A DNA stretch of 64,000 bases from Thiohalorhabdus sp. Cl-TMA. Its GTDB lineage: Bacteria; Pseudomonadota; Gammaproteobacteria; Thiohalorhabdales; Thiohalorhabdaceae. Numbering within the stretch: the first letter of the stretch is position 1; each line of letters starts with the position of its first letter. This document shows, one piece after another, positions 20,854-41,027 of the stretch. Both the position numbers and the translations under genes were made by a program. The stretch is from positions 124,001-188,000 of the forward strand of contig NZ_JBGUAW010000004.1 of assembly GCF_041821045.1 (NCBI RefSeq), read 5' to 3'. The notes under the pieces are model-generated. The model was not told the origin of the DNA. It searched no databases and was given only the letters and a program-made list of their open reading frames with translations.

Positions 20854-22017
20854 TCACTCGGCTTCGAGGTTCCCTTCCAGCCCTTTGACGTCCCGCCGCG
20901 CTTCGGGATCCACTTCACAGATCCCGAAAGCCGCCAAATATTCCCGGGCTATCGCTTCGGCACCCATATGGGCTACCGCCTCGTTGAGCGATTCCGGACT
21001 ATGCGGGTCATCAAGGACCGAGATCATTCCCGCGGCCAGGGCTTCCGGATCATCCATGGCCACGAGCGGGCCCCAGCGGCCGGATTCCAGAACCTCACCG
21101 GGCCCATGAGGACAGTCGGTGGACACCACCGGCACCCCCAATACCATGGCTTCGATCAGCACGTTGCCCAGGCCTTCCCAGGAAGAAGAGAGCACAACGG
21201 CGTCACTCGCCGCCATAATATTGAACGGATTCAACCTGGACCCCATGAAGAGGATGTCCTCCGCAAAGGGGGATTCCTCCGCCATTTCCTCGAGCTGCTC
21301 ACGATTCTTGCCATCGCCGACGATAACCAGCTGCGCCATCCGGTTCCTGCGCAGAAGGGCGAAAGCCTCGAGCAACAGCGGGATATTCTTCTGCGGCACC
21401 AAGCGGGCCACGGTGGCCAGAAGGGGAACGCCGGGCTTCCTGAACGCATGAAGCTCGGGGTCCGGCTTCCTGGAAAGCGCCTGAAGATGCGAAAAATCTA
21501 CCGGATTGTATATAACCCGGTAGCAGGAATCCCGGATGTGCGTCACTTCCCTGAAGTCGGATTCTACCCCCTCCGAGACGGGAATGATTCCGTCACACAC
21601 CGGGTAACTGCGCTTGATCGCCTTGAGCCTGCTTTTCGCCTTCTTCGAAGACAGCTCCCCGAGGGCCCGGCTGAGGGTATTATGAATATTCACGAAGATT
21701 CGGGTCCGGCTACGGATCAAGGCCCGTGCCCGAACAGCCGTTACGGTGTGCCGGGTGCTGGTCGTCAACAGCACATCGGGCTTGCTTCTGAACAGGTAAT
21801 AAGCCAACGCCGGAACACCGGTAATGGAATTCGTTGTGCCGAGCGGAACCTTGACCACCTCCGGCGGAAGCTGGCCAACGAACGTGCCCGAGAAATCCTG
21901 AAGCAGCACTTCCACATCGACGCCGAACCGGACCCACTGGCGGGCCAGATTCAGCATATTCCTTCCTATACCCCCTCCCATGGATGGGGCCATCAGGGCG
22001 ATTTTAGGGGCACTCAA
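20854..22017 (-). CDS. GT4-type glycosyltransferase
   Basis: A 387-residue GT-B fold glycosyltransferase. The acceptor half starts with IALMAPSMGGGIGRNMLNLA, a glycine-rich loop. The donor half has ATVARLVPQKNIPLLLEAF, the GDGKNREQLEEMA segment and the signature SSSWEGLGNVLIEAMVLGVP with its conserved Glu pair. Sugar and acceptor cannot be told. It lies at the left end of the glycan locus; the C-terminus has a ~25-residue charged tail that its paralogues lack. Confidence 0.85.
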   Translation of the reverse strand: MSAPKIALMAPSMGGGIGRNMLNLARQWVRFGVDVEVLLQDFSGTFVGQLPPEVVKVPLGTTNSITGVPALAYYLFRSKPDVLLTTSTRHTVTAVRARALIRSRTRIFVNIHNTLSRALGELSSKKAKSRLKAIKRSYPVCDGIIPVSEGVESDFREVTHIRDSCYRVIYNPVDFSHLQALSRKPDPELHAFRKPGVPLLATVARLVPQKNIPLLLEAFALLRRNRMAQLVIVGDGKNREQLEEMAEESPFAEDILFMGSRLNPFNIMAASDAVVLSSSWEGLGNVLIEAMVLGVPVVSTDCPHGPGEVLESGRWGPLVAMDDPEALAAGMISVLDDPHSPESLNEAVAHMGAEAIAREYLAAFGICEVDPEARRDVKGLEGNLEAE

Positions 22018-22247
22018 AAATTCGTCCTTTCGCGAATTTCATACCAGGAAACAGCCCGTCAAACCTCAAGTACTCACCATGCACAAGCTATGGATCCGGG
22101 GGCCGAACAAGGATAATACCGCGGGACAAATCCGCACCCTAAAGGTTTCGGATTGGAATAGAGGAGCCCCGAACACCCAAATATTGAAAATTCGCTTCTT
22201 CCCGAAAAAAATACCTCCATGCAGCCCCCCTTTCCGGCAATAACCAC
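22018..22247. other. AT-rich intergenic region
   Basis: About 230 bases of lower GC content, probably including the promoter of the glycosyltransferase to its left. No gene, repeat or RNA structure was recognised. Confidence 0.4.
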
Positions 22248-22934
22248 TCATTCCCCGAAGGCTTTCTGCAGGCCACTCAGATAGTTGCGGGTTATCTCGG
22301 GATCCGGCTCATCCGCCGGCACCCAATCCCCCACGTCCTGCCGCTCGTTGCCTTCGATAATCTGACGGTGCTGCCGTACCTCCACACGGCTCCCACCGTT
22401 TGCAAGGTCCTGGACCGCGACCTCGAACCGGTAGCGGGCGTTCTTGCCGAAGCCCTTGGTAAGCACCCGCATGAACAGCCCCAGTCCCGATTCGCTCTCC
22501 GGATGCCAAGCCCAGTAGGCTTGCTCGGTCACGAAGCGGTGCGCGCCGAAGCGCTCTTTTGCCAGGGTCAGGCCCTGCATGAGCGTAGAGGCCCGCACAC
22601 CCGCATAGGTGGTGGGCACCTCGAAAGGCACCTCGAGCCAGAACCGGCCGTCCTCCTCATGGATCTCGGCCACCCACTCCCGGCCCCCGACGGAGGTCTC
22701 GTCGGCCTCCATGAACTGCCCCACCGACTCGTCCTTCTTCGCCGGGGCCGGCTTTTGGTTGTCCGACGACTCGGGCGCTTGGCGACCCTCCGGGCCGTTT
22801 GCCTGGGGATCATAGACCACCGTGTCCCCGACCGTGTGCTTCGCCCCGCACCCTACGAGGAGCGCGGCGGCCAAAAGGAGACCCAGCCAGGTCCAGGCCC
22901 TATTCTGCCGATTCGGCATTCGCGCTTCAGTCAT
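22248..22934 (-). CDS. BamC-like lipoprotein, second copy
   Basis: A 228-residue lipoprotein with signal peptide and lipobox (LLAAALLVGC). Its C-terminal domain resembles that of the BamC-like protein at 16523-17140: VRASTLMQGLTLAKE versus VRAALLMQGAAIAEE, NGGSRVEVR versus GGGSRVVVQ, and a shared LQKAFG/VQPAFG end. The ALAIPPDL contact motif is absent. It overlaps the start of hldE's 3' end by eight bases on the same strand, so it is co-transcribed with a heptose gene. It may serve LPS or outer-membrane assembly; the function is not known. Confidence 0.65.
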   Translation of the reverse strand: MTEARMPNRQNRAWTWLGLLLAAALLVGCGAKHTVGDTVVYDPQANGPEGRQAPESSDNQKPAPAKKDESVGQFMEADETSVGGREWVAEIHEEDGRFWLEVPFEVPTTYAGVRASTLMQGLTLAKERFGAHRFVTEQAYWAWHPESESGLGLFMRVLTKGFGKNARYRFEVAVQDLANGGSRVEVRQHRQIIEGNERQDVGDWVPADEPDPEITRNYLSGLQKAFGE

Positions 22935-24378
22935 GGCCCCCCTCGTCCAGCCCGCCCTTGCGGATGGCCTCCATCATCGCGGAGCTGGAGCAGCCCTCCC
23001 GAAAGGAAAGCACCACCACCTCGCCGCCGGCCCCGGTTACGGCCTCGTACCCGGCGATATCCTCGGGGCGATAATCCCCGCCCTTCACCAGACAATCCGG
23101 CAGAACCCGTTCCATGAGACGGGCAGGGGTATCCTCGCTGAACGGTACCACCCAATCCACCGAGGCCAATCCGGCCAGTACCGCCATGCGCTGGGCCAAC
23201 GTATTGATGGGCCGCCCTTCACCCTTCAGCCGGCGAACCGAATCGTCATCGTTCACCGCCACCACCAGCCTATCCCCACGCTCAGCCGCCTCTTCCAGGT
23301 AGGCCACATGGCCGGCGTGCAGCAAGTCGAAACAGCCATTGGTCATCACCACCCGCTCGCCGTGGGAGCGGGCATCCTCCACCAGGGTGTACAGCTCCTC
23401 CTCCGCAACCACCCGCTGTCCGCCGTGATCTTCGTGCAAGCGGGCACGTCGCAAATCCGCCGGAGATGCCACCGCCGTACCAAGGCGGCCCACCACCACG
23501 CCGGCGGCCAGATTGGCCATGGAGACCGCCTCCTCCCAGGGCTCCCCCGAGGCCAACGCCGCGCTCAGTGTGGCGATCACGGTGTCTCCGGCCCCGGTGA
23601 CATCGAAAACGTCCCGGGCCCGAGTCGGGAAATGGGCAGGCGGTTTACCCGCCCGGACGAGGGTCATTCCCTGCTCCCCCCGGGTCACCAGAATCGCCTC
23701 CAGCTCGAGGTCCCGGCGCAGGGCTTCCGCCCGATCACCCAATTCCGCCTCGGTCTGGCAGACCCCGACCACCGCCTCGAACTCGCCACGGTTGGGGGTG
23801 ATGGCGGTTGCGCCCCGGTACCGCGTGAATTCCCGTCCTTTGGGGTCCACAAGGACGGGCTTGCCCGCCTCCCGGGCCATCCCGATCAGGGTCGCGACCT
23901 CGGCGAGCGTGCCCTTGCCGTAATCGGAGAGCACTACCGCATCGACATCGGCGCTGGCCTGACGGAACCGGTCCAGCAGGTCTTCGCTGTCACACCCGTG
24001 GAAGCCGTCCTCGAAATCCAGCCGAATGAGCTGCTGATGCCTGCTAACGATACGCAGCTTGACCAGCGTGGCAATGCCGGTATCCCGGACCAGGTGACAG
24101 GTCACCCCGGAGTCCCGCAACCGGGCTTCCAGGGAATCGGCCTCCGTATCCGTGCCGGTGAAGCCCAGGACGGACACCCTAGAGCCCAGGGCGGCTGCAT
24201 TGAGGGCCACGTTGGCGGCCCCGCCGGGGCGAAGCTCCTCGCCCTCGATGCGGACCACCGGTACCGGTGCCTCCGGGGATATACGACCGGTATCCCCGGA
24301 CCAGTATCGGTCCAGCATCAAGTCTCCAGCAACCAGGAGACGGGCTTTATGAAATCTTTCCAGGTGCATAAAAGGCAT
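22927..24378 (-). CDS. hldE: Bifunctional heptose 7-phosphate kinase / heptose 1-phosphate adenylyltransferase
   Basis: A 483-residue enzyme making ADP-heptose for the LPS inner core. The N-terminal ribokinase-type domain (GDLMLDRYWSGDTGRISPEAP, RPGGAANVALNAAALG, TGAGDTVIATLSAALA) phosphorylates heptose 7-phosphate. The C-terminal nucleotidyltransferase has TNGCFDLLHAGHVAYL with the HxGH motif and VKGGDY. Both active sites look complete. ATG 24378 aligns with the family start. The next gene, a BamC-like lipoprotein, overlaps its end. Together with waaA and a heptosyltransferase it shows that this is a heptose-containing LPS core locus. Confidence 0.96.
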   Translation of the reverse strand: MPFMHLERFHKARLLVAGDLMLDRYWSGDTGRISPEAPVPVVRIEGEELRPGGAANVALNAAALGSRVSVLGFTGTDTEADSLEARLRDSGVTCHLVRDTGIATLVKLRIVSRHQQLIRLDFEDGFHGCDSEDLLDRFRQASADVDAVVLSDYGKGTLAEVATLIGMAREAGKPVLVDPKGREFTRYRGATAITPNRGEFEAVVGVCQTEAELGDRAEALRRDLELEAILVTRGEQGMTLVRAGKPPAHFPTRARDVFDVTGAGDTVIATLSAALASGEPWEEAVSMANLAAGVVVGRLGTAVASPADLRRARLHEDHGGQRVVAEEELYTLVEDARSHGERVVMTNGCFDLLHAGHVAYLEEAAERGDRLVVAVNDDDSVRRLKGEGRPINTLAQRMAVLAGLASVDWVVPFSEDTPARLMERVLPDCLVKGGDYRPEDIAGYEAVTGAGGEVVVLSFREGCSSSAMMEAIRKGGLDEGGHD

Positions 24379-24473
24379 GGTTCCATCGGCGGGAATCGCA
24401 GGGTAGGCTATCACAGTTATCCTGGCCCTTCCGCAGAGCGCACACTACGGGGATTGACCGTCTGCGCACCCTT

Positions 24474-25589
24474 TCAGGGAAAGGGATCCAGGCCCATTTC
24501 CTCCAGATACCGGCTGGTCGCCGCCTCGATCTCGAATTCGCGAACTGCTTCCTGCAGCTGTTCAGCGGGTAATGGATCTTGCAGCGTACCCCGAAGGGCC
24601 TCGGCCAGCCCTTGCCAGTCCCCTACTTCCACAAGGGGTCCGTACCGCCCCTCTCCCAGGGTTTCCCTGGGACCGCTGGGACAGTCCGTGGACACCACCG
24701 GCGTTCCCAGGGCCATGGCCTCGATCAGTACGAAGCCCAGGCCCTCCCAACGGGAGGTCAAGGCCAGAACGTGGGAATATGCCATGAAGGCATACGGATT
24801 CGACTGAAACCCCAAGAAAGCCACATCTTCCGCCACCCCCAGCTCCTCCGCCAGAGTGCTCAAGACCTCCCTTTGCCGCCCCTTCCCGACGAGGACCAAT
24901 CTGCACTCCACCCGACGGCGTAGCCGCGCAAAAGCGCGAACCAGAGTCTGGAAATCCTTGCGGACCGAGAGCTCCCCCACGCCGAGAACAACCGGGGGGG
25001 CCCCGGGCTGAAACCAAGGATGCTCCGGTCTTGGCGGAGCTTGGCGGAAAAATTCCTCGGGAATTACGGGCGTGGGCACCACGCGCACCTTTTCCGCAGG
25101 CACGCCGAACGCCTCATGCAAATCCGCGGCGACCCCCCTTGAAGGCACCAGAACGCGGTCAACAAGGGGGTACAGATGACGGAAGGACCAACGCTGCAGA
25201 ATCCGCTCCTTTAGCGGGCGCCCGGAAAGCGCTGTTGAGGCAGTGGTCCCGAACCGGAAAATCTGACGGACGGGCACTCGCGCGACTTTTCTGGCAAGGA
25301 ACGCGGTCCGGTTGATGCGATCCTTTCCGGAAACCAGGACCGACGGGGCTTCCCTGCGCAGATAGCGCACCAGTCCGGGGAAGGCCGTCCAGGCATGACG
25401 GCCCCCGAGATCCACCACCCGAACGCCATTCGGCCCATCATCCAATTGCGGCCCGTGTCCCCGCACCCGGAGGACATCAACGGAGTAGCCCCGCCGCGCG
25501 ATGGCTGGAACGAGATTCCGCAGCAGCCTATCCACTCCGCTATGCCCCGAAGTCGCGAACAAAAAAGCAATTCGCGTATCATCCGCCAT
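24474..25589 (-). CDS. GT4-type glycosyltransferase
   Basis: A 371-residue GT-B glycosyltransferase. Features are FATSGHSGVDRLLRNLVPA at the N-terminus, VLGVGELSVRKDFQTLVRAF in the donor domain, and LTSRWEGLGFVLIEAMALG followed by STDCPSGPRETL. The last motif is shared nearly word for word with the glycosyltransferases at 31136, 32847 and 34850, suggesting they arose by duplication. Probably acts at the cytoplasmic membrane face in LPS or O-chain synthesis. Confidence 0.85.
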   Translation of the reverse strand: MADDTRIAFLFATSGHSGVDRLLRNLVPAIARRGYSVDVLRVRGHGPQLDDGPNGVRVVDLGGRHAWTAFPGLVRYLRREAPSVLVSGKDRINRTAFLARKVARVPVRQIFRFGTTASTALSGRPLKERILQRWSFRHLYPLVDRVLVPSRGVAADLHEAFGVPAEKVRVVPTPVIPEEFFRQAPPRPEHPWFQPGAPPVVLGVGELSVRKDFQTLVRAFARLRRRVECRLVLVGKGRQREVLSTLAEELGVAEDVAFLGFQSNPYAFMAYSHVLALTSRWEGLGFVLIEAMALGTPVVSTDCPSGPRETLGEGRYGPLVEVGDWQGLAEALRGTLQDPLPAEQLQEAVREFEIEAATSRYLEEMGLDPFP

Positions 25590-25849: not shown

Positions 25850-26668
25850 ATGCTCAAGAAACTAAAGAAACAATTACGCCGCTCCTGGCTCCACCACAGC
25901 TGCGATACCCATATCATTTCGTTTCCCAAATGCGGCCGAACCTGGCTCGTCCTCATGATCTCCAAGGCCATCGAGGAGCATTATGGGGTGAAGGGATCCG
26001 ACCCGCTTCGGCCACACCGTTACAAGCGGAAATTACGGCGTCTTCCCAAAATTCTGCCGCATCACGACGGGGGACCGGAGTTCCTTGAGCCCGAGGAGCT
26101 GGAAACCGACAAATCCGCCTATTCAAAGAAAAAGGTGATCTTCCTCGTTCGGGATCCGCGGGACGTAACCGTTTCCGCCTATTTTCAGAAAACCAAACGC
26201 AACCCCAACTTCCATGGGACCCTCGAAGAGTACGTTTATGAACCGAGAGGCTCCATAGAAAGCAATATTGCTTTCTACAATATCTGGGCCCGTAATCGGC
26301 AGGTGCCCAGGGACTTTCTACTGCTTACCTACGAGAACATGCAGGAAAATGCCCACCAGGAGCTTCGCCGGGTCATGGATTTCATGGGGCTGAGCGAAGT
26401 CTCCAATGAAGCCCTGGAAATGGCGGTGGAATTCTGCAGGTTCGAAAACATGCGGAAAATGGAGTCCTCGAACAGCCTGGACAGCAAACGGCTTACGCCT
26501 AGGGACTCCTCCGACGAAACCACCTACAAGACACGGGAAGGCCGGTCCGGCGGTTATGTCGACTATCTAGACGCCCCGGAAATCGGCCACATCAACCGCC
26601 TGATAGCGGAGCGCCTCGATCCGTATTTCTCCTTTTATTATGGAGAGCCGAATACCTTCCACTCCTGA
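25850..26668 (+). CDS. Sulfotransferase-domain protein
   Basis: A 272-residue cytosolic-type sulfotransferase. The PAPS 5'-phosphosulfate loop is SFPKCGRTWLVLMI near the N-terminus. The 3'-phosphate site is IFLVRDPRDVTVSAYF, with the Arg and Ser expected. LLTYENMQENAHQELRRVMDFMG is also typical. It would transfer sulfate from PAPS to a hydroxyl, here presumably on a sugar because of the surrounding glycosyltransferases. ATG 25850 starts just before the basic N-terminal helix. It lies in a noticeably lower-GC segment. Confidence 0.85.
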   Translation: MLKKLKKQLRRSWLHHSCDTHIISFPKCGRTWLVLMISKAIEEHYGVKGSDPLRPHRYKRKLRRLPKILPHHDGGPEFLEPEELETDKSAYSKKKVIFLVRDPRDVTVSAYFQKTKRNPNFHGTLEEYVYEPRGSIESNIAFYNIWARNRQVPRDFLLLTYENMQENAHQELRRVMDFMGLSEVSNEALEMAVEFCRFENMRKMESSNSLDSKRLTPRDSSDETTYKTREGRSGGYVDYLDAPEIGHINRLIAERLDPYFSFYYGEPNTFHS

Positions 26669-26784: not shown

Positions 26785-27552
26785 TCAGGCCGGGCTCTCC
26801 TCCTCCGGTGTAAATCCCAACAGCCGGATCTCTCGGGCGAAACAGATCTCTACAAGCTCACGGGTCTGCGCGTCGTAATAACCGTCGGTGCCCCGCTTGG
26901 GACGATATCCCCCCTTGGCCGACAGGGCTTGCATGGTATCCCCGACGTTTTCCGGCAGCCCGAGCTGCTCGGAAACCTCGCCCAGCTCCTGGTACAGGCG
27001 GTCATAGCGGATCACCCGGTCCATTGCCACCCGACCATTAACGGTATAGCGCTCGAAACTGCTCTTCAGAGGCCTTCCGGAAAGGACATAATCCTTGAAG
27101 GAAAGGGCTTCCTCGTTCTCCGCCCCCTTGAGCCCCCAGTAATAGGCAGAGACCACTTTGTCCCAGGGATTACGCTCCACGGTGAACTTGTAATAGCGGT
27201 CCCAGATTTCAGTGCCGATCCGGTCCCGAATCTCGGCGGCGGACATATGATTCCAATACCGCTTGGGGAACTGGCACGTGGCCAGGGCCCGTTTCTCTTC
27301 CGCGCCTGCCATCGTGCGGATCCTCGCTTGCGCCCAGCGCGGAAGCTCCGACGGGTGCAGCTGCGAAAGGGATTTCTGGAAGTTCTGGGCCGTACGGTAG
27401 CCCCGCCGGAATCGGTCGCGCTCATCGTCTCCGGAAATCGGCGTAATGATGTCCTCGGGACCCAGAAACCGGGACAGAGCCATTTCCAGGGACGTTCCGC
27501 CAACCTTTCCGGTCTTCACAAAGATAAAACCGAATTTATGGGAGATGATCAT
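26785..27552 (-). CDS. Sulfotransferase family 2-like protein
   Basis: A 255-residue protein with the carbohydrate sulfotransferase pattern: FGFIFVKTGKVGGTSLEMAL as the PAPS loop (K-T-xx-GGTS) and FTVERNPWDKVVSAYYW as the 3'-phosphate site. It is a close tandem relative of the next gene (27564-28343), with 11 bases between them. A sugar substrate is inferred from the glycan context. Confidence 0.82.
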   Translation of the reverse strand: MIISHKFGFIFVKTGKVGGTSLEMALSRFLGPEDIITPISGDDERDRFRRGYRTAQNFQKSLSQLHPSELPRWAQARIRTMAGAEEKRALATCQFPKRYWNHMSAAEIRDRIGTEIWDRYYKFTVERNPWDKVVSAYYWGLKGAENEEALSFKDYVLSGRPLKSSFERYTVNGRVAMDRVIRYDRLYQELGEVSEQLGLPENVGDTMQALSAKGGYRPKRGTDGYYDAQTRELVEICFAREIRLLGFTPEEESPA

Positions 27553-27563
27553 CTACCGGCCCC

Positions 27564-28343
27564 TTATTCGCCGCCCAGCGCGGGGTGCCCGTGGGAAACC
27601 GCCCTGGACTCCTCCGGCAGGAACCCATATGCGAAGGCCTCGATCTCCCTGTGGCATACGCGCTCGATATGTGCCTGGTCGGAAAGGCTGAGAACCTGAT
27701 CATATTCTCGCTGGTCCTTCCTGTATCCGCTCTTTGCCCGCTGCTTCGGCAATTGCAGTTTGTCCCCCAGCCCAAGCTCCCTTCCCAGCGCTGCCAGTCC
27801 CTCGCTCAGGTTTTCATAGAACAGAACACGGTCCACGGCGATCTCCCCGTCGATCGTGTAGTGCCCCCAATTGCTGAGCCAGTGCGGCTTGTTCCGCTCC
27901 AGCCAGATCAGGTACTCGCTCAGGGAAGGGAAGCCCGTACGACCTTTTTCCTCCCAGCGCTTCCGCTGCCACCAGTAGCGAGACAGGGCCCTGTCCCAAG
28001 GATTCCGTTCAATCGTGAACTTGAAATATCGGGACCAGATCCGTTGGCCCACCAATTTGCGAATTTCCGGGGCCGTCATATGCTCCCCGAAACTGGTCCG
28101 TTGCCGCCTGCCCAGTAATCGCCGCCATTCCTTGAACCCCCGGTGCTCAAGAACCGGTTTGAGGTGGTTAGCGGGTCCGTACCCACCCTCCCTCCGGCGC
28201 AGCTCCTCCTCGCCACGGCTGGCACTAAGCGGAGTGACCACATCCCCTTCGCCGCAAACCCGGGATAGGGCAATCTCCACGCTGCTTCCGGCCGTCTTGC
28301 GGGTTTTGATGAATATGAATCGGTGCGTATGGCAGATGATCAT
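27564..28343 (-). CDS. Sulfotransferase family 2-like protein, tandem paralogue
   Basis: A 259-residue homologue of the neighbour at 26785-27552. It has HRFIFIKTRKTAGSSVEIAL and FTIERNPWDRALSRYWW at the equivalent PAPS-contact positions and a matching GYRKDQREY near the C-terminus. The first loop has AGSS rather than GGTS. Transcribed with its paralogue and the upstream glycosyltransferase and ligase genes. Confidence 0.82.
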   Translation of the reverse strand: MIICHTHRFIFIKTRKTAGSSVEIALSRVCGEGDVVTPLSASRGEEELRRREGGYGPANHLKPVLEHRGFKEWRRLLGRRQRTSFGEHMTAPEIRKLVGQRIWSRYFKFTIERNPWDRALSRYWWQRKRWEEKGRTGFPSLSEYLIWLERNKPHWLSNWGHYTIDGEIAVDRVLFYENLSEGLAALGRELGLGDKLQLPKQRAKSGYRKDQREYDQVLSLSDQAHIERVCHREIEAFAYGFLPEESRAVSHGHPALGGE

Positions 28344-28352: not shown

Positions 28353-29564
28353 CTAGCTGGGATAGGGTTGATCGATCTCATGGACGAAACGGTCCCAGCA
28401 GGAAAAGGTTTCCTCCCTCAGGCGCTCGTAACGTTTCCTGCCCTCTTCGGATTTGGCATTCCGGAGCTCGGGGTCCGCCAGCAGCTGCAGAAGCCGGTTG
28501 GCCATCTCCGTGGGCTGGAGGGGATCGGCCAGCATGGCCGCACCTCCGACCACCTCCGGGACGGAGGTAACGGCGGAGGCAAGGACCGGCGTTCCCCACT
28601 TGAAGGCCTCCACGGGCGGAATGCCGTAACCTTCGGACAGGGTAGGAAAGGCCATAATGCGGGCGTTGCGTATGAAGTCCTGCAGCTGTTCGGATTGAAC
28701 GTATGGGTGAAACCGGAGATTCAGGACATTTCCAAATCGACGCCGCAGGCGACGACGGCAGGCCTCGTCCGCGCCCACGAGATCAATTCCTTCTCGGTTG
28801 GCGGCCTGCCGGGACGGCTCGTGTCGGGCGATTCCTTCCAGGAACCGTTCGGCATTCTTGACCAAGCGGTTGGCCGAAAGCAGCAGAATGCCCCCCCGAT
28901 CATTGTCTCGGTCGGGACCACCATCCGGGACGAATGGCGTCAGCGGCGGGAGCAGACCCACTTCGTCACGAAAACGCTCTTCACGCCCCGGCACCAGCGA
29001 CCCAAGATCCAGGTACAGGGCATACTGGGAATGCCGGGAAGGGCAAACCACCCGATCACCGTCCTTCAAGGCCTCGAAACGGCGACGAACCCTGGACATG
29101 GCGTGCCGAAGCCGTTTCTTGCGCAGATAGACAGAATAGGTGCAAAGCACCCCCTTCCAGAACCCTCTGCCCAGGAGGGGATGACAGAGATGGTCACTGA
29201 TGCTGTACGCCTTATCCTGATACCGGAACCCGTGCTCCACTACCACCAGCCGCGCCCGGGTCCGCCCCCCCTGGCCTTCTAGAAAATTCGCGCCAAGCGC
29301 CAGGAACAGGATGTTGCCGGAATGATCGAGATCCTCCGGCAATTGCCGCAAGGGACCATCCCCCACCTCACGCAGCGGCACTTCGGGGCCGAGCTCCTCC
29401 TGCGCAGACTCTCGATCCCCGGACCGGATCAAGGCCAGCACATCGAATGCTTGCAGCCGTTCGGCCAAGAAGCGGGCGGCATCCTTTCCGTATTCACCAC
29501 CGCCATGGGAAAGGGTCTGCCCTTTCCCGAAGCACATCGTAAGGTCAATCAGGAGCTTAGCCAT
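28353..29564 (-). CDS. GT4-type glycosyltransferase (mannosyltransferase-like)
   Basis: A 403-residue GT-B enzyme. It starts LLIDLTMCFGKGQTLSHGGG; the donor half has ILLLSANRLVKNAERFLEGI, NLRFHPYVQSEQLQDFIRNA and FPTLSEGYGIPPVEAFKWGTPVLAS-type text (the E-x7-E region). The pattern FPTLSEGYGIPPVEA is different from that of the other GT4 proteins of the locus and closer to mannosyltransferases. ATG 29564 overlaps the end of the ligase-like gene by 16 bases. Confidence 0.82.
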   Translation of the reverse strand: MAKLLIDLTMCFGKGQTLSHGGGEYGKDAARFLAERLQAFDVLALIRSGDRESAQEELGPEVPLREVGDGPLRQLPEDLDHSGNILFLALGANFLEGQGGRTRARLVVVEHGFRYQDKAYSISDHLCHPLLGRGFWKGVLCTYSVYLRKKRLRHAMSRVRRRFEALKDGDRVVCPSRHSQYALYLDLGSLVPGREERFRDEVGLLPPLTPFVPDGGPDRDNDRGGILLLSANRLVKNAERFLEGIARHEPSRQAANREGIDLVGADEACRRRLRRRFGNVLNLRFHPYVQSEQLQDFIRNARIMAFPTLSEGYGIPPVEAFKWGTPVLASAVTSVPEVVGGAAMLADPLQPTEMANRLLQLLADPELRNAKSEEGRKRYERLREETFSCWDRFVHEIDQPYPS

Positions 29565-32846: not shown

Positions 32847-33992
32847 ATGAGCCCAATCACCCATGTCGCATTCCTCATGCCCTCTGCCGGCTGGGGCGGT
32901 ATCGAGCGCAAGAACGTCCATTTCGCCAATGAGCTCGCCAGGCGCGGAATCCGGGTGGACATGCTTCTATCCCGTTCGGAGACCCCGCCCTACCAGGACT
33001 ATCTGAACGAATCGGTCCACGTCCGTCCCCTGGGGGCCAGGCATAAGTATTCCGCCGTACCCAAGGTCAAAGCCTATCTCGACTCGGAGCAGCCGGACGT
33101 ACTGATCACCGCCAAGGATCATGGGGCCAAAGTCGGCATCGTGGCGGGAAGGCTTTCCCGGGCCCATACCAAGATCGTCCTGGGAATCGGCAACACCCTG
33201 GGCACTTCGGAGACCAAGCTTGGCCGGCGCCTCGGGGTACGCCTCCTCTATCGGCTCGCCGACCGGATTATCGCGAACTCTCAAGGCGTGGCCGACGATC
33301 TCGTGGAATCCTTCGGCCTGCCCGGGAAGAAGGTCCGCGTGGTATTCAATCCGGTGGTGACGGACAATCTGCTCGATCGATGCCGGGAGCCGGTGGACCA
33401 TCCCTGGCTCCAGGGCGGCCGCGACTTCACAACGGTGCTCGGATGCGGACGCCTGAGCCCTCAAAAGGACTTCCCCACCCTGCTTCGCGCCCTGGCCGAA
33501 GTCCGCATGCACCGGGATTGCCGCCTCGTGGTGCTCGGCGAGGGCCCAGAGCGGGGAAACTTGCGGGCTCTGGCCGAACGGCTGGGCATCACGGACGCGG
33601 TGGATTTCCCCGGATTCGTCGACAATTCCTACGCCTATATGGCCAGGACCGACCTGTTCGTACTTTCCTCGCGCTGGGAAGGCCTGCCGAACGTGCTGAT
33701 CGAAGCCCTGGCCTGCGGCGCACCCTGCGTGGCCACGGACTGCCCCAGCGGGCCCCGGGAGATCCTCCGGGAAGGCCAATACGGCCGCCTCGTTCCCATG
33801 GGGGATGCCCAGGAAATGGCCACGGCAATCGGGGAAGGCCTGGACAGCCCTACTCCCCCCGCGATACTCCGAGAGGCCGCGGACCGCTTCAAGGCGGAGG
33901 CCGCCACCGACCATCTCCTTGAGGTCCTCGGCGAGGTAGCCGCTCCCGCCTCTCCTGCAACCGTTTCTTCCCGCACTTCTGCCGACGAATAG
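32847..33992 (+). CDS. GT4-type glycosyltransferase
   Basis: A 381-residue GT-B enzyme starting FLMPSAGWGGIERKNVHFA. Donor-domain motifs are GCGRLSPQKDFPTLLRALA and SSRWEGLPNVLIEALACGAP, then ATDCPSGPREIL. It opens a plus-strand group (glycosyltransferase, sulfotransferase, glycosyltransferase, sulfotransferase) in which genes are only 6 bases apart or overlap, so it is probably an operon. The GC content rises sharply here compared with the left neighbour. Confidence 0.85.
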   Translation: MSPITHVAFLMPSAGWGGIERKNVHFANELARRGIRVDMLLSRSETPPYQDYLNESVHVRPLGARHKYSAVPKVKAYLDSEQPDVLITAKDHGAKVGIVAGRLSRAHTKIVLGIGNTLGTSETKLGRRLGVRLLYRLADRIIANSQGVADDLVESFGLPGKKVRVVFNPVVTDNLLDRCREPVDHPWLQGGRDFTTVLGCGRLSPQKDFPTLLRALAEVRMHRDCRLVVLGEGPERGNLRALAERLGITDAVDFPGFVDNSYAYMARTDLFVLSSRWEGLPNVLIEALACGAPCVATDCPSGPREILREGQYGRLVPMGDAQEMATAIGEGLDSPTPPAILREAADRFKAEAATDHLLEVLGEVAAPASPATVSSRTSADE

Positions 33993-33998: not shown

Positions 33999-34853
33999 AT
34001 GCTCCCTTCCAGGCCCATAATCGTAATCGGCATGCACCGCTCCGGAACCAGCATGCTGGCCGGACTCCTCCGGAAGGCCGGGGTGTACATCGGCCGCAAT
34101 CTGGGCAAGAACGAGGAGGCGCTCTACTTCCGGACCCTGAACCGGTGGCTCCTGGCCCAGGCCGGGGGCTCCTGGACGCATCCCCAGCCGATCCATGAGC
34201 TCCTGGAGGACGAACCGTCCCGGCAGCTTGCCCGCGAATACCTGAAAGCCAGCCTCCAAGGCCCCCGGTCCCTGGGCTACTGGGGCGCGACCGGGATCCT
34301 ACCCTTCCAACCGGCCGGAAAGCGCCTCTGGGGCTGGAAGGATCCCCGCAGCACCTTCACCCTCCCCTTGTGGCTGGACCTGTTCCCCGAAGCGCGGGTG
34401 ATCCACATGGAGCGGCACGGGGTGGATATCGCCGAAAGCCTGGCGGTACGCCGCGCCCGATCGCAGAAGCGCACCCAGGAGCACTTCCGCCGGCGCCGAT
34501 TCCTGTACCGGTTCGTTTCCAAGAAGACGGACCTGCTCGACACCCCCCGGCTGGCCAGCCGGGAGCGCGCCTTCGAGCTGTGGGAGGAATACCTCGCTGA
34601 GGGCCGGGCGCAGATGGCCAGCCTGGGGGTCCAGGGCCTGTCCCTGGTCTACGAATCCTTCCTCCAGGATCCTGTCCGTGAATTCGCCCGGGTTGCCGAA
34701 TTCTGCGGACTGGAGGCCGGGGAGGACCGGATACGCGCAATCACCGGCCACCTGGATCCAGAGCGTGCCTTCGCCTACCGCTCCTCGCCGGAGCTGCGGG
34801 CCTTCGCGGAGGCCCGGTCCGACCGGCTCCAGGCATTCGGCTACGCGCCGTGA
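33999..34853 (+). CDS. Sulfotransferase-like protein
   Basis: A 284-residue protein with PAPS loop IIVIGMHRSGTSMLAGLLRK, typical of sulfotransferase family 3-like bacterial proteins. WGWKDPRSTFTLPLWLDLFP and VIHMERHGVDIAESL supply the second, 3'-phosphate-side region. It starts six bases after the upstream glycosyltransferase and its TGA overlaps the GTG of the next one (GTGA), which implies coupled translation and a joint pathway step. Confidence 0.82.
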   Translation: MLPSRPIIVIGMHRSGTSMLAGLLRKAGVYIGRNLGKNEEALYFRTLNRWLLAQAGGSWTHPQPIHELLEDEPSRQLAREYLKASLQGPRSLGYWGATGILPFQPAGKRLWGWKDPRSTFTLPLWLDLFPEARVIHMERHGVDIAESLAVRRARSQKRTQEHFRRRRFLYRFVSKKTDLLDTPRLASRERAFELWEEYLAEGRAQMASLGVQGLSLVYESFLQDPVREFARVAEFCGLEAGEDRIRAITGHLDPERAFAYRSSPELRAFAEARSDRLQAFGYAP

Positions 34854-35980
34854 GCGGAGCCCCGTCCCGACGCATCGCTATCTTCCTGTCCTTTTCCGGG
34901 GACGGCGGAGTCGAGCACATGATGGTTAACCTCGCCGGCGCCATCGCCCGACTGGGTTTCCCCGTGGACCTGGTCAGGATCCGCGTCGAGGGCGGCCACG
35001 CCACCCGGATACCGGAGGGCGTGCGCGTGGTGGACCTCAAAGCCCGGCATACCTGGTCCAGCCTCCCGGCGCTGGTGCGCTACCTGCGCCGGGAGCGCCC
35101 GGCGGCCCTCTTGGCCGCCAAGGACCGGGCGAACCGGATCGCCCTTCGGGCGCGCCGCATTGCCGGCGTATCCACCCGGATCGCGGTGCGCCTGGGCAAC
35201 AACCTCTCCCGCTCCCTGGAGGGACGCTCCCGGTTGCGCAAGTGGGCACGCACGGTGCCCATGCGCCGGGCCTACCACAAGGCGGATGCGGTGATCGCCG
35301 TCTCCGCGGGCGTGGCCGAGGACACTGCGGCCATAACCGGGCTTCCCCGCCGAGCCATCCAGGTGCTGCCCAACCCGGTGGTTACACCAGACCTAGAGGA
35401 GCGCGCCCGCCCCATCCCGGAGCACCCGTGGCTCCGGGACCAGGGCGAGAAGGATCCCCCGCTCATCCTGGGCGTTGGCCGGTTGAGCCGGCAGAAGGAT
35501 TTCCCGACACTGCTCCGGGCCTTCGCCCGGCTCACGGAGGAGCAGTCCGCCCGGCTGGTGGTGCTGGGAGAGGGCCGGGACCGGGCCGAGCTGGAGGGGA
35601 TGGCGGCCCGGCTCGGCATCTCCGGGCTGGTGGACTTTCCCGGCTTCGCGGCCAATCCGTATCCGTATATGCAGCGCGCCGACCTCTTCGCCCTCTCCTC
35701 TGCCTGGGAGGGCTCCCCCAATGCCCTTACCGAGGCGCTGGCCCTGGGTACCCCGGTGGTGGCCACGGACTGCCCCAGCGGGCCCCGGGAGATCCTCGAG
35801 GAGGGGCGTTACGGGGCTCTGGTTCCGGTCGGGGATGCGCCGGCGCTGGCGGAGGCCATGGCCGAGACGCTGCGGGCACCCCTTTCCCCGGAATTCCTGC
35901 GCAGCGGAGGCGACCGGTACCGGGATACGGAAAGCGCCCGTCGCTACCTCGAGGTGCTGGGCGTCCCGGACGCGGGCTGA
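34850..35980 (+). CDS. GT4-type glycosyltransferase
   Basis: A 376-residue GT-B enzyme. FLSFSGDGGVEHMMVNLAG is the N-terminal loop; GVGRLSRQKDFPTLLRAFA, SSAWEGSPNALTEALALGTP and ATDCPSGPREIL are donor-domain motifs. GTG start, overlapping the upstream stop by four bases. Alignment by eye with the 32847 protein is good along the C-terminal half, supporting duplication. Confidence 0.85.
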   Translation: MSGAPSRRIAIFLSFSGDGGVEHMMVNLAGAIARLGFPVDLVRIRVEGGHATRIPEGVRVVDLKARHTWSSLPALVRYLRRERPAALLAAKDRANRIALRARRIAGVSTRIAVRLGNNLSRSLEGRSRLRKWARTVPMRRAYHKADAVIAVSAGVAEDTAAITGLPRRAIQVLPNPVVTPDLEERARPIPEHPWLRDQGEKDPPLILGVGRLSRQKDFPTLLRAFARLTEEQSARLVVLGEGRDRAELEGMAARLGISGLVDFPGFAANPYPYMQRADLFALSSAWEGSPNALTEALALGTPVVATDCPSGPREILEEGRYGALVPVGDAPALAEAMAETLRAPLSPEFLRSGGDRYRDTESARRYLEVLGVPDAG

Positions 35981-36069: not shown

Positions 36070-36729
36070 ATGCTGTACTCGTACCGCTACCGTTTCCTGT
36101 TCGTCCACCTCGCCAAGACGGGCGGCACCAGTGTCCGTACCGCTCTGGACGGCTACCGGTGGCGGGACCCCTATTTCTATCCCCAGTTTCTCTGCCGCAA
36201 GCTGAGCGGACTCACCAAGCGGCGCATCGGCGTCCGCATACCCCGCCACGCAAAGGCCATCACCGCCCAGGAGATGCTGCCCAAGGACATCTTCGAGTCC
36301 CTGTTCAAGTTCGCCTTCGTGCGCAACCCCTGGGACCTGCAGGTAAGCTCCTGGTACCACATCAGCCGCGAGCGCCCGCACCTGCTCGAGGGCATCGACG
36401 ACTTCGACGCCTTCCTCTATTGGAAGCTGGAAGATCCGAAGCGGCCCTACCACTACATCGTTGACGCTTCCACGGAGCCGCAATGGCACTCGCTCATGGA
36501 CTTCAACGGCAACCAGATCGTGGACTTCCTGGGGCGGTACGAGAACCTGGGGGAAGACTACTACGAGGCGTGCCGGCGCATCGGGCTGCCCAAGATCCCG
36601 GAGCTGCCCCACAAGCGCCAGGCCAAGAACCGCACCGACTACCGGACCTACTACACCGATTACGCGTACGGCCTCATCGATAAGCACTTTCGGCCCGACA
36701 TCGACAACCTGGGCTATACCTTCGATTGA
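36070..36729 (+). CDS. Sulfotransferase family 2-like protein
   Basis: A 219-residue protein with YRFLFVHLAKTGGTSVRTAL as the PAPS loop and FKFAFVRNPWDLQVSSWYH as the second site. It is shorter than but clearly related to the tandem pair at 26785-28343. ATG 36070 follows AAGGAGA. It closes the plus-strand group, about 90 bases after the glycosyltransferase. Confidence 0.83.
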   Translation: MLYSYRYRFLFVHLAKTGGTSVRTALDGYRWRDPYFYPQFLCRKLSGLTKRRIGVRIPRHAKAITAQEMLPKDIFESLFKFAFVRNPWDLQVSSWYHISRERPHLLEGIDDFDAFLYWKLEDPKRPYHYIVDASTEPQWHSLMDFNGNQIVDFLGRYENLGEDYYEACRRIGLPKIPELPHKRQAKNRTDYRTYYTDYAYGLIDKHFRPDIDNLGYTFD

Positions 36730-36994: not shown

Positions 36995-37861
36995 TCAGGC
37001 GGAGGAGGCGCCTTTCGTTACCCCCCGCCAGCGCCGCTCCTTGAGCCAGTTCAGTACCCGCCCGGGCACCGCCAGCAGGTCGATGCCCAGCCGACTGCCC
37101 CGACCCAGATCCTCCTGCCAGGTCTCCCGCAGGGCGATCTCGCTGCTTTGGGCGGTACGCACCCCGTTTCCGGCCAGATTATGGTTGTCCTGGCTGGCCC
37201 AGTCGCTGACCTGCGCGGGCTCGAACGCCAGCCCCAGGTATTCCATTATCCGCCGCATCTCGGCCTCGGGCTCGCTGGCCAGCCGCTCATAGCGCACCAC
37301 CAGGTGGGGCCGATCGAAAAGGAGACCGAATAGCCGCAGGGAGCGGTAGGAGTACTGGAAGGTCGGCCTGAAAACCTGCCCCTTGCGCCGCCGCACCGAA
37401 TTGGCCCGGCCCTTGGGGTTCCGCATCACGTGAATGGGCAATACTTCCAGGTCGGGGTGCTTGAGCAGGTGGCGCAGGCGGGTAACCCGCTTGGAGGAAT
37501 CCACCACGTAGTCCACATCCTTGGAGGCGGCCACCGCGGAGAACAGCTCCAGATTGTCCCGCCGGAACGTTTCCGCATCGGCGGCTTCCAGATCCAGATC
37601 GTCCAGCTTCCGGCCGTACCGCTTTTCCAGCTCGGTGTTGACCGCCGTCCAAAAGGGACATTGCCAGATGTCCTCCGCGCCGCACGCGCAGGAATTGCCG
37701 ATCCGGTCCGTGCTCTGCGGATTCTTCTGACGCTGCAGCCTGGCAAACTTGCGGAGCTTGTGGACCTCTCCAACCCCGGCCATGCCGCTGTGGGCGTTGA
37801 GCAGGACGTCCAGCAGCGTGGTCCCGCTCCGCCCGAGCCCGGTAACATACACCACCTTCAT
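36995..37861 (-). CDS. Sulfotransferase-like protein
   Basis: A 288-residue protein starting VVYVTGLGRSGTTLLDVLLN, the PAPS loop of sulfotransferase family 3-like proteins. VDYVVDSSKRVTRLRHLL and VLPIHVMRNPKGRANSV are the usual following segments. Two CxC/CxxC-like cysteines (NSCACGAEDIWQCPFW) precede, as in other bacterial members. ATG 37861 follows AAGGGG; an alternative ATG at 37882 would overlap the heptosyltransferase stop. The two genes are co-transcribed. Confidence 0.82.
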   Translation of the reverse strand: MKVVYVTGLGRSGTTLLDVLLNAHSGMAGVGEVHKLRKFARLQRQKNPQSTDRIGNSCACGAEDIWQCPFWTAVNTELEKRYGRKLDDLDLEAADAETFRRDNLELFSAVAASKDVDYVVDSSKRVTRLRHLLKHPDLEVLPIHVMRNPKGRANSVRRRKGQVFRPTFQYSYRSLRLFGLLFDRPHLVVRYERLASEPEAEMRRIMEYLGLAFEPAQVSDWASQDNHNLAGNGVRTAQSSEIALRETWQEDLGRGSRLGIDLLAVPGRVLNWLKERRWRGVTKGASSA

Positions 37862-37874
37862 CGATTCCGACCCC

Positions 37875-39002
37875 TTACTCATTCTCCCGCGCGGCGGAGC
37901 TGCCCGGCCCACAGGCCGGCTGCACCGCCCCTTCCCCGGAATGCGCCATGACCGCATCCAGCTTGGCGGTCACATCCGTCACCTCGATCGCTCCCATCGC
38001 CTCGGCATGCCGCACCCGCTGCCCCCAGGCGGCCTGCTCCACGCTGGTGTCCGCGAACCGGGCCAGGTTCTCGGGATACCGGTTCACCGCCCATTGCTGA
38101 CTGAGATACGGACCGGTCCGGTACGGATTGGAGGTACCGAACAGACCGATCACCGGGATCCCGGCGGCCGTTCCCATGTGCGCCGGACCAGTATCGGGGG
38201 CCACGAGCGCCCGGGAGCGCTCCAGCACGGCCAGCAGCTGCTTAAGCGAGGTGCGGCCCACCAGATTGACGGGCTGATGGGCCATGGCGTCGGCCACGGA
38301 CTGGCCGTAGGCCTGCTCCTGGGGCGACGGTCCGCCGGTGAGCACCACCTGCATGCCGTGCTCCCGGACCGCGTAGTCGGCCACCGCCGCGTACCGTTCC
38401 GGATACCAGTTCCGCCAGTTCCGGGGCCGCACGCTGGAGCAGGGGTTGATGGCCAGCACCGGCGCCGTCCCCGGAAGGTGCTCCGCGGCGAAGGCACGCG
38501 CCTCCTCGGGCACGGGGATCTCCCACCGCAGGTCCCGTTCCCGGATCCCCATTGCCCGCAGGAAATCGAAGAGCCCGTCCAGCACGTGGCGCCGGGGATT
38601 GGGCGCGATGCGGCGGTTGACGAACAGGCCGTGCCCGTTCCTGGAGCGCCCCGGATCGTAGCCGAGCCGGGTATCCGCGCGGACACCCAGCCCGGCCACA
38701 TTGGCCCGCAGCGCCGTCTGCATCTGGAGCAGCAAATCGAAGCGGCGGTCGCTCAAGCGGCTGCGCAGCCTGCGTAGCTCGCGGAGCCCGCCCCCCTTCT
38801 CGTAGGGAACCACCTCCACGCCGGGGAGGTCGCCCACCAGGCCGGCTTCCACCTTGCCCACCACCCACGTCAGGGCCGTTTCGGGCCAGTAATGCTGAAG
38901 GGTGCGGATTACGGGTACCACATGAGTGACATCGCCGATTGCCGAAAGGCGGACGATGCAGAGGCTCCGCGGCGGGGAAGAGACGGTGTGGCTATTGGTC
39001 AT
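37875..39002 (-). CDS. Glycosyltransferase family 9 (heptosyltransferase)
   Basis: A 375-residue GT-B enzyme of the LPS heptosyltransferase family. The N-terminus is LCIVRLSAIGDVTHVVPVIR, the canonical GT9 pattern with RLSxIGD. AINPCSSVRPRNWRNWYPERYA and the ADP-heptose-binding VAPDTGPAHMGTAAGIPVIGLFG are present. It is close to WaaC-type heptosyltransferase I in pattern. It fits with hldE, which makes ADP-heptose, and waaA in the same locus. Confidence 0.92.
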   Translation of the reverse strand: MTNSHTVSSPPRSLCIVRLSAIGDVTHVVPVIRTLQHYWPETALTWVVGKVEAGLVGDLPGVEVVPYEKGGGLRELRRLRSRLSDRRFDLLLQMQTALRANVAGLGVRADTRLGYDPGRSRNGHGLFVNRRIAPNPRRHVLDGLFDFLRAMGIRERDLRWEIPVPEEARAFAAEHLPGTAPVLAINPCSSVRPRNWRNWYPERYAAVADYAVREHGMQVVLTGGPSPQEQAYGQSVADAMAHQPVNLVGRTSLKQLLAVLERSRALVAPDTGPAHMGTAAGIPVIGLFGTSNPYRTGPYLSQQWAVNRYPENLARFADTSVEQAAWGQRVRHAEAMGAIEVTDVTAKLDAVMAHSGEGAVQPACGPGSSAARENE

Positions 39003-39180
39003 GGGCCTGGAGGTAGTCAGGAGATGGACTTTCCATGAAAAGGATCAAGCCTTGGCTGCCCGGAATTATAAAGGCCCTGGCCCCATGGGGCATCCTCGAA
39101 TGTAGGGGAAATCCCTTGCGGCTCCTTTCGGATTCCGGGAAAATCCGGTGCTTCGCCTTACGTTATCGGAGAGAAGACCC

Positions 39181-39789
39181 TTGCAGGAGAGTCCCGAGCG
39201 CATTCTGATTACCGGCCACCCCAGGTCGGGGACCAAGTTCACCGCCAAGATGCTGAAGCGGATGGGGTATCCCACCAGCTACGAAGGACACAGCCTGGGC
39301 CGCAAGACCCGCTTCGTTTCCTCCTGGAAGCACGCCATGCCTGGGGTCTTCGAATACCGGTACTTCCGCAAGATGAAGCTGGACCAGGATTTCGCGAAGG
39401 TCATCCATCAGGTCCGCCATCCGCTGAAGGTCATCGCCTCCTCCACCACGCTCTTCGATCTGACCATCGATCACATCAAGAAGCACGTGGATATTCCCGA
39501 GGAGACCGTGCACAAGAATCAGCCCCTGAAGCTGTGCATGCGGTCGTGGATCGGCTGGAACAAGCTGATCGAGGAAAAAGCGGACTGGCGATACCAGCTC
39601 GAGGAGCTGCGCGACATCTTCCCGGAGTTCTGCCGGCAGATCGGCATCCCCGAGCAGCCCATACCCAACATGGGCAAGCGCAACACCCGCCGGCACGGGG
39701 ATTTCACCTGGGACGACCTCTACCGGGAAGACGAGGCCCTGGCCCAGGAGATCCGGGAGATGGCCCAGCGATACGGCTACGAGGACTGA
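39181..39789 (+). CDS. Sulfotransferase-like protein
   Basis: A 202-residue protein with ILITGHPRSGTKFTAKMLKR as the phosphosulfate loop and VIHQVRHPLKVIASSTT as the second PAPS region. It is divergent from the other six and short. TTG 39181 is the best start, seven bases after GGAGAG; GTG 39148 is a weaker alternative. Its end overlaps the convergent waaA end by 13 bases. Confidence 0.75.
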   Translation: MQESPERILITGHPRSGTKFTAKMLKRMGYPTSYEGHSLGRKTRFVSSWKHAMPGVFEYRYFRKMKLDQDFAKVIHQVRHPLKVIASSTTLFDLTIDHIKKHVDIPEETVHKNQPLKLCMRSWIGWNKLIEEKADWRYQLEELRDIFPEFCRQIGIPEQPIPNMGKRNTRRHGDFTWDDLYREDEALAQEIREMAQRYGYED

Positions 39790-41027
39790 CCGATCGTCTC
39801 CCGGGAGCCCGTGACCGCCGCCACGTAATCGGCCAGGACGCCGGAATTGGCCGTTACCGTCGCCCGGGCGGCCCCACCGATCCGCTCCCGGGCCTCCGGG
39901 CTGGCAAGCAGCCTGTCCAGAGCGACCTCCAGCTCGGCCTCGTCGGCCACCTGAACCGCACCCCCCCCCTCGAGCAGCAGCCGGGTCTCCTCGGCGAAAT
40001 TCTCCATATACGGTCCCACGACCACCAACTTGCCCAGCGCCGCGGGCTCCAGGAGATTGTGCCCGCCCTTCGGCACCAGAGAGCCGCCCAGGAACACCAG
40101 ATCCGCATGCGCCATGAAACCGGTGAGCTCACCGAGCGTATCGGCCAGATAGACCTCGGTATCGCGGGCAACCGGTTCGCCCCGACTGCGCACCGCCACC
40201 TTTTCCGTCACCTCCGCGAGCTCCCGCAGAATCGCCTCCCGGCGTTCCGGGTGGCGGGGGGCGATAACCAGCAGCCGCTCCGCATCCCCGACCCGCTTCC
40301 ATAGCCGGGAAAGCATCGCTTCCTCGCCCTCCCGGGTGGACCCGGCCAGCACATAGGGCCGTTCCAGCAGGCGATCCACCTCGGCCTCCCGCTGCAGATC
40401 CGCCATCTGGGCGAATTTAAGGTTCCCCAGCACCCGGATCCGCTGGTCCGGCATCCCCAGCCCCCGGAACCGCTCGGCGTCCTCCTCCGAACGGGCCAGG
40501 CATTCCGCAACGGACCGGAGCGCCGTACGGTAGGCCCGACGAAGCCAGGCGGGCGCCTCCATGGTCCGCGGGGAAAGGCGTCCGTTCACGATCGTCAGGG
40601 GGATTCCGCGCCGCTCGCAGGCGGCGAACAGGTTCGGCCAGAGCTCCGTCTCCACCACCAAAGCCTGGCGGGGGCAGGCCTGATCCAGAAAGCGCCGAAC
40701 ACCGCCGGGGAGGTCCAGGGGCAGATAGGCATGGACCACGCCCTCCGGGAACGCCTTCTCGGCCGCATCCGCGCCGGTGGGCGTGGCCGTGGAGACCAGG
40801 AGGCTTGCCGTTCCTTCCGCCAGTGCCCGTACCAGGGGCGCCGCCGCCCGCACCTCCCCCACGGAAGCGCAATGCAGCCAGTAATCGAAGGGCCCCTCGG
40901 GTGCATCCCGGCCAAGGCGCTGCCGAAAATACCGGCCACCGCCGTCCCGGTTCGCCCGCCACAGGGTATAACCGACCGCCGGCAGCGCCGCCAGCCGTAC
41001 CAATACATTGTAAGCGCTTACTTTCAT
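39777..41027 (-). CDS. waaA: 3-deoxy-D-manno-octulosonic acid transferase
   Basis: A 416-residue inner-membrane-anchored GT30 enzyme that adds Kdo to lipid A precursor, starting the LPS core. Features are the N-terminal anchor, WLHCASVGEVRAAAPLV, VVETELWPNLFAACERRGI, NGRLSPRTM, LVIAPRHPERREAI and VFLGGSLVPKGGHNLLEPAALG. ATG 41027 begins with a membrane segment as expected. It marks the right end of the glycan locus. Confidence 0.95.
   Translation of the reverse strand: MKVSAYNVLVRLAALPAVGYTLWRANRDGGGRYFRQRLGRDAPEGPFDYWLHCASVGEVRAAAPLVRALAEGTASLLVSTATPTGADAAEKAFPEGVVHAYLPLDLPGGVRRFLDQACPRQALVVETELWPNLFAACERRGIPLTIVNGRLSPRTMEAPAWLRRAYRTALRSVAECLARSEEDAERFRGLGMPDQRIRVLGNLKFAQMADLQREAEVDRLLERPYVLAGSTREGEEAMLSRLWKRVGDAERLLVIAPRHPERREAILRELAEVTEKVAVRSRGEPVARDTEVYLADTLGELTGFMAHADLVFLGGSLVPKGGHNLLEPAALGKLVVVGPYMENFAEETRLLLEGGGAVQVADEAELEVALDRLLASPEARERIGGAARATVTANSGVLADYVAAVTGSRETIGQSS

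Follow-up and report, generated by a model that had tools for sequence, protein, structure and literature searches.

What does a bacterium make with seven sulfotransferase genes that lie among the genes for its lipopolysaccharide (LPS) core? The question is raised by a run of surface-glycan genes, flanked by a PhoH-like gene and a porin gene, in the 3.74 Mb draft genome (99.2% complete) of Thiohalorhabdus sp. Cl-TMA, here G000. We analyzed a window of 64,000 nucleotides, bases 124001-188000 of contig C4, for which an earlier note had proposed a heavily sulfated LPS or capsule. In this locus, seven genes for sulfotransferases or sulfotransferase-like proteins (STs) are mixed with six genes for family 4 glycosyltransferases (GT4) and with genes for HldE, WaaA, a GT9 heptosyltransferase (Hep), and one Wzy_C protein, and several of the ST genes directly adjoin a GT4 gene. 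Judging from gene content and gene order, the locus probably builds a sulfated LPS core or outer core. The genes are as follows, with window positions, strand, and the supporting match.

g01, 20854..22017, minus strand: GT4 glycosyltransferase (Pfam Glycos_transf_1, 3.6e-34).
g03, 22927..24414, minus strand: HldE, ADP-heptose synthesis (PfkB and CTP_transf_like; 70% identical in the sister genome).
g04, 24474..25589, minus strand: GT4 glycosyltransferase (orthologues in the sister genome and other loci; own clade in the GT4 tree).
g05, 25850..26668, plus strand: Sulfotransfer_1-type sulfotransferase (PF00685, 6.1e-24; phmmer to solved SULTs, 7e-12).
g06, 26785..27552, minus strand: Sulfotransfer_2-like protein (18.9 bits, under the Pfam cut-off of 22; 35% identical to g07).
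g07, 27564..28343, minus strand: Sulfotransfer_2-type sulfotransferase (PF03567, 28.6 bits against a cut-off of 22).
g08, 28353..29639, minus strand: GT4-type glycosyltransferase (Glycos_transf_1, 2.8e-18; start probably the ATG at 29564).
g09, 29549..30958, minus strand: Wzy_C family membrane protein, O-antigen ligase or polymerase (PF04932, 4.9e-14).
g10, 31136..32365, minus strand: GT4 glycosyltransferase (in a clade with GT4s of G345 and G139).
g11, 32847..33992, plus strand: GT4 glycosyltransferase (in a clade with GT4s of G001, G139, G079, and G345).
g12, 33999..34853, plus strand: Sulfotransfer_3-type sulfotransferase (PF13469, 5.2e-17; directly 3' of g11, with a 4 bp overlap with g13).
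g13, 34850..35980, plus strand: GT4 glycosyltransferase, partner of g14 (Glyco_trans_1_4, 1.3e-33; grouped in the tree with the GT4s that precede g14-type STs).
g14, 36070..36729, plus strand: Sulfotransfer_2-type sulfotransferase of 219 residues (PF03567, 33.5 bits, 6e-8).
g15, 36995..37957, minus strand: Sulfotransfer_3-type sulfotransferase (PF13469, 3e-14; likely start ATG 37861).
g16, 37875..39002, minus strand: GT9 heptosyltransferase (PF01075, 1.1e-39, on 38000-39002).
g17, 39181..39789, plus strand: ST-like protein, the weakest confirmed (PF17784, Sulfotransfer_4, 23.8 against 22.8 bits; Sulfotransfer_3 at 26.1, under its 27).
g18, 39777..41096, minus strand: WaaA, Kdo (3-deoxy-D-manno-octulosonic acid) transferase (Glycos_transf_N, 1.2e-57).

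The interleaving of STs with at least six GT4s, a heptosyltransferase, hldE, waaA, and a ligase, which the earlier note had described, was borne out: Pfam domains confirm GT4s g01, g08, and g13, the GT9 enzyme, WaaA, HldE, and the Wzy_C protein, and the GT4s g04 (24474), g10 (31136), and g11 (32847) were assigned solely from BLAST and the GT4 tree. The three genes that mark an LPS core locus, waaA, an ADP-heptose gene, and a heptosyltransferase gene, are all present. Third-position GC content is approximately 0.68-0.74 in the left glycan genes (24474-32365) and 0.84-0.89 in the right ones (33999-39789), a split that suggests a mosaic origin of the glycan genes.

The seven ST genes are all open reading frames (ORFs) at the positions first noted for them, and six of the seven exceed the curated Pfam cut-off; the seventh, g06, is recognized by its resemblance to its passing neighbor g07. 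The earlier note had also reported loops for 3'-phosphoadenosine 5'-phosphosulfate (PAPS) and 3'-phosphate motifs throughout. A regular expression for the two motifs found both in six of the seven STs, compared to none of 12 further proteins encoded in the locus; for g17 the expression is too strict, and the motifs GHPRSGTK and RHPLKVIAS were recognized by eye. In 41 sequences of the g14 family, K16-TGGTS and R85-NPWDLQVSS are invariant. In NCBIfam the proteins received no functional name other than a weak NodProtNoeE match for g15, and in PHROGs the Sulfotransfer_2 members match a phage "Galactose-3-O-sulfotransferase" family. From sequence, we infer that these STs are enzymes that would transfer sulfate from PAPS.

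Folds were predicted for two of the seven, g14 and g17. The AlphaFold (AF2) model of g14, built from 41 sequences, has a predicted local distance difference test score (pLDDT) of 91.4 and a predicted template modeling score (pTM) of 0.87, and each of the 50 rows in its VIA list is either a sulfotransferase or retinol dehydratase, a related enzyme. The top matches, with Z scores of 9.3-9.8, are heparan sulfate 6-O-, 2-O-, and N-sulfotransferases (5t03, 4ndz, 9f6z), and the best is a 6-O-sulfotransferase (Z 9.8, 4.4 A over 180 residues). The g14 protein, as modeled, has a sulfotransferase fold. Heparan sulfate sulfotransferases are animal Golgi enzymes; like the proposed function of g14 they involve glycan acceptors and a PAPS site, whereas identity to g14 is 10-18% and g14 has only 219 residues. 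The g17 model, made without an alignment, reached a pLDDT of 39.6, and searches of solved structures with six of the STs (all but g06) listed no match for g17 or g07.

Comparison with relatives, which the earlier note had suggested, found the same kind of locus in the sister species (G001). There, the interval from phoH to the porin gene holds genes for a lipoprotein, WaaA, HldE, an asparagine-synthase-like protein, four STs, a protein that resembles Wzy and is 23% identical to g09, GT4s, and a GT9 enzyme. Order and content are partly reshuffled relative to the window, with g14 (69%), g13 (68%), g12 (40%), and a relative of g07 (40%) retained. A class-wide search of 369 genomes with g05 found relatives of >50% identity, besides G000 itself, only in G345 (55%) and G079 (52%), which represent two other families, and both of these genomes carry ST-rich LPS-core loci. 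In G079, the locus begins with Hep, a Kdo-kinase family gene, a GT4-Sulfotransfer_2 pair of g13-g14 type, an ST-like gene, and a Sulfotransfer_3 gene of g12 type. It continues with a GT4-Sulfotransfer_1 pair (g04 and g05 types), a Sulfotransfer_2 gene of g07 type, and two genes, one of which matches GT2, and ends with a second ST-like gene lacking a Pfam match, Wzy_C, and a GT4-Sulfotransfer_3 pair, for a total of five clear STs and two ST-like genes. In G345, one strand reads Sulfotransfer_1, Sulfotransfer_2, GT4, GT4, Sulfotransfer_2, GT4, Sulfotransfer_3, GT4, Sulfotransfer_2, HldE, and where a junction could be placed the neighboring genes mostly overlap, by 4 or 7 bp; Hep and WaaA follow on the opposite strand. 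G139, a genome from the genus of G345, has three GT4s, a Sulfotransfer_3 gene, a GT4, a Sulfotransfer_2 gene, and HldE, then Hep and WaaA. The orthologue groups are clean: the best matches of g05, g07, g12, g14, and g15 in these loci are 40-69% identical (for g07, 63% in G345, 55% in G079, and 40% in G001; for g12, 40-45% in G139, G079, G345, and G001), and g06 is a paralogue of g07. By these sequence comparisons, the ST-rich LPS-core locus is not idiosyncratic to this genome.

The pairing of a GT4 with an ST is clearest for g13 and g14. Considering the best 80 of 552 relatives of g14, identities are 55-63%, nearly all are full-length, and they occur in Gammaproteobacteria and Desulfobacterota, with carriers that include Methylococcus capsulatus, Thiocapsa, Luminiphilus, and Desulfacinum; in the sample of 232 Gammaproteobacteria, g14 was found in 22, among them the two members of its own genus. 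Of the 75 loci with enough upstream DNA, 29 have a GT4 gene directly upstream of the g14-type ST and in the same orientation. Similarity alone was too weak an argument that the adjacent GT4 is of the g13 type, given that g13 was the best match for 29 of 30 adjacent but also for 31 of 50 non-adjacent GT4s, and a GT4 tree was therefore made (rows of <300 residues dropped, frames of >430 residues cut to the last 400). One 41-row clade that includes g13 holds 34 of the 35 GT4s directly upstream of g14-type STs (support 100/98), and its seven other rows also come from g14 loci, at different positions. The adjacency label requires 6 changes on this tree, compared to 28.9 in shuffles, and none of 500 shuffles was as low. 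The remaining window GT4s in the tree belong to different clades, each of which joins them with support to relatives from other loci.

A heptose or core gene is present in 38 of the 80 g14 loci, and any tested glycan gene in 51. Only 4 of 100 neighborhoods scanned with our own ST profiles had more than one ST, therefore dense arrays are a minority form; the profiles came from few seeds and missed both ST-like genes of G079, making these counts floors, and the 100 loci include some genomes twice (e.g., the closely matching L096 and L133). In Chromatiaceae loci such as L063, L065, and L069, the g14-type ST stands alone, away from the tested glycan genes, beside genes that, judged from their sequences, are dapF/DUF484/xerC-like.

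Sulfation requires a donor, and the supply of PAPS that the earlier note suggested looking for was found elsewhere in the genome: G000 has one adenosine 5'-phosphosulfate (APS) kinase (APS_kinase, 1.6e-59), fused behind ATP sulfurylase in a 570-aa Sat-CysC protein on another contig. APS kinase is present in G000, G001, and G079, and the PAPS/APS reductase family had no match in G001 and G079; the control search matched in 14 of 14 genomes. The CysH of G000 carries a CC...CxxC pattern, presumably that of an APS reductase. An APS kinase without a PAPS reductase in G001 and G079, together with the CysH type of G000, points to PAPS with no obvious reductive use, which fits sulfation.

We propose that WaaA, HldE, and the GT9 enzyme would make a Kdo-heptose inner core, to which the GT4 enzymes would add further sugars in the cytoplasm. 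The STs, several of them each tied to one GT4 gene, would then transfer sulfate to the newly added sugar from PAPS, which the Sat-CysC fusion would provide; g13 and g14 would be the clearest such pair, and g11 and g12 a second likely one. This GT4-then-ST account is supported by the pairing, the overlaps, the adjacency of hldE and waaA, and the PAPS supply. The analysis itself shows the gene families, the PAPS-site motifs, the fold of g14, the conserved pairing, and the APS kinase; from these we infer what the acceptors are, that sulfate is present, and that its carrier is the core rather than an O-chain. A broader proposal, which we offer tentatively as a real possibility, is that these loci represent an unrecognized class of sulfated LPS cores built by GT-ST pairs, in which each GT4 adds a sugar and its co-inherited ST sulfates the same sugar. 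Under this proposal, g13-g14 would be an old module common to Gammaproteobacteria and Desulfobacterota, arrays would have grown to five to seven STs in some lineages, and the charge of the LPS would come largely from sulfate.

Several results weigh against a sulfated core built in this way. The g06 protein falls below its Pfam cut-off (18.9 versus 22 bits), and g17 is marginal and matched none of the STs from the other loci compared. A Foldseek search with the g14 model gave no match at E <= 0.001 (best 3.2e-3). Non-adjacent GT4s often resemble g13 best, so that similarity is a weaker argument than the tree. Twenty-nine of the 80 g14 loci, many of them in Chromatiaceae and a few on short contigs, lack any tested glycan gene. 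In G345, which has five STs in its locus and is 99% complete in 200 contigs, there was no APS-kinase match.

An unlikely alternative is that the STs sulfate a polymeric O-antigen that is polymerized or ligated by the Wzy_C protein, in the manner of marine sulfated O-polysaccharides. One Wzy_C protein occurs in each of the window and G079 loci, with the 23%-identical relative in G001, and the available text of PMC11766843 cites sulfated O-polysaccharides for Cobetia. Against this, reading the ORFs of the locus, to which the search was limited, revealed no flippase, O-unit initiator, or nucleotide-sugar gene, and the GT4-ST array of G345 runs directly into hldE with no Wzy_C-like ORF noticed beside it (ORFs were read, without a Pfam scan). 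Rather improbable is that some of the seven STs are degenerate or act on other acceptors, such as peptides or small molecules, leaving the glycan lightly sulfated or not sulfated at all. The ST families are broad, long ST frames (697 and 1363 aa) exist outside the locus, and g06 and g17 are weak; yet the pattern search finds the motifs conserved in six STs and inspection by eye in the remaining one, and orthologues of five occur in loci of this kind. It is very improbable that the STs act on a capsule or exopolysaccharide with an incidental LPS-gene neighborhood, as in the clusters with PAPS and ST genes known for Vibrio and Cobetia (PMC11641403, PMC11766843), and we set this aside because, in other families too, orthologous STs adjoin hldE, waaA, and Hep. 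The kps export genes that the published capsule clusters carry, in the available text, were not seen in the scanned or read ORFs of 20854-41096 (the rest of the genome was not searched).

We thus favor the LPS core or outer core over a capsule because hldE, waaA, and the heptosyltransferase gene occur in the locus and its orthologues, and because no capsule or O-unit export genes were seen among the ORFs read in either, in a search that was not exhaustive. From the earlier proposal of a heavily sulfated LPS or capsule, the LPS part is retained, with PAPS-type STs in an LPS-core locus and a PAPS supply, and the capsule part is unlikely. Its suggestion that sulfation helps in salty habitats found no support. 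The median isoelectric point of long window ORFs was 7.0 (shadow ORFs not fully removed), with no acidic-proteome signal, and the word sulfate does not occur in the available texts of two papers on halophile LPS (PMC5923411, PMC5532643), the second of which proposes anionic LPS groups as a help against salinity.

The earlier note had also called sulfated LPS rare in free-living Gammaproteobacteria, which our survey does not support: Sulfotransfer_3 genes occur in 139 and Sulfotransfer_2 genes in 55 of the 232 sampled genomes (12 Sulfotransfer_3 candidates were scored in genomes with >12), and sulfated marine glycans have been published. These include capsules and O-polysaccharides of marine Gammaproteobacteria (PMC11766843, PMC11641403), and, in the portions of these papers available, one Vibrio ST is proposed for O-antigen. 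The capsule clusters of Vibrio sp. KMM 8419 and Cobetia marina KMM 1449 resemble the present locus in belonging to Gammaproteobacteria and in combining PAPS supply, ST, and glycosyltransferase genes. They differ in being of capsule type with ABC (kps) export and in holding the PAPS genes inside the cluster, whereas here the PAPS gene is elsewhere; the Vibrio cluster has three ST genes over approximately 80 genes, whereas here seven STs lie in approximately 14 kb beside hldE and waaA, with GT4-ST pairs. LpsS of Sinorhizobium meliloti is likewise a sulfotransferase that modifies LPS (as cited in the available text of PMC12445080). It is named there as a Stf0-family enzyme, and the STs of the locus match Sulfotransfer_1, 2, 3, and 4; among the Pfam matches listed up to E 1, none of the seven matched Stf0. 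NodH and other Sulfotransfer_3 glycolipid STs share a Pfam family with g12 and g15 and also sulfate bacterial sugars, but NodH makes sulfated nodulation glycolipids, with no LPS-core context described in the text available (PMC11625862). In the literature searched, which left most subscription journals and bioRxiv outside, no description of STs in a waaA/hldE locus was found. Sulfated surface glycans are therefore already known, and the LPS-core GT4-ST array is a variant not found in that literature.

If the sulfated-core reading is correct, LPS sulfation would extend beyond rhizobial LPS and a few marine O-chains, as a conserved core modification in several lineages. Gene order would tell which transferase makes the acceptor for which ST, making acceptor assignment for uncharacterized bacterial STs directly testable, and the carriers of g14 homologues named above are possible test organisms. 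Such loci would also be a source of new carbohydrate sulfotransferases, and the modification could matter for phage adsorption and for the charge of the outer membrane.

Three family searches found approximately 17 ST places in G000, and every PF03567 match of the genome falls in this locus. When 17 STs were placed at random on 3.74 Mb, the maximum within 14 kb was 4 in 20,000 trials, compared to the seven observed. Chance clustering is rejected in this sense, and only random placement is rejected, because glycan genes cluster anyway. Other sampled genomes have several close Sulfotransfer_3 genes (e.g., G103:C35 and G210:C16), mostly in long frames, and we do not claim the ST density of the locus as unique.

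Elsewhere in G000, a second WaaA-Hep-Sulfotransfer_3 trio (L122, C3:347285-350642) is 59, 48, and 63% identical to the window's genes, the last value being for a copy of g15 that follows Hep; it adjoins genes for a Sel1-type repeat protein and a large mechanosensitive-channel-like protein, both named by eye. Two Sulfotransfer_3 domains 2 kb apart at C1:174406-177087 (L129), each in a 1363-aa open frame, probably belong to a single protein with a pair of ST domains, and they lie apart from every LPS locus seen. A Sulfotransfer_3 match of 17.9 bits, below the cut-off, lies in a 262-aa frame 1.2 kb past the window (C4:189160-189219). Within the window, open frames of 1400 aa (11002-15204) and 1304 aa (11038-14952) overlap on opposite strands, and it is likely that one alone is a gene.

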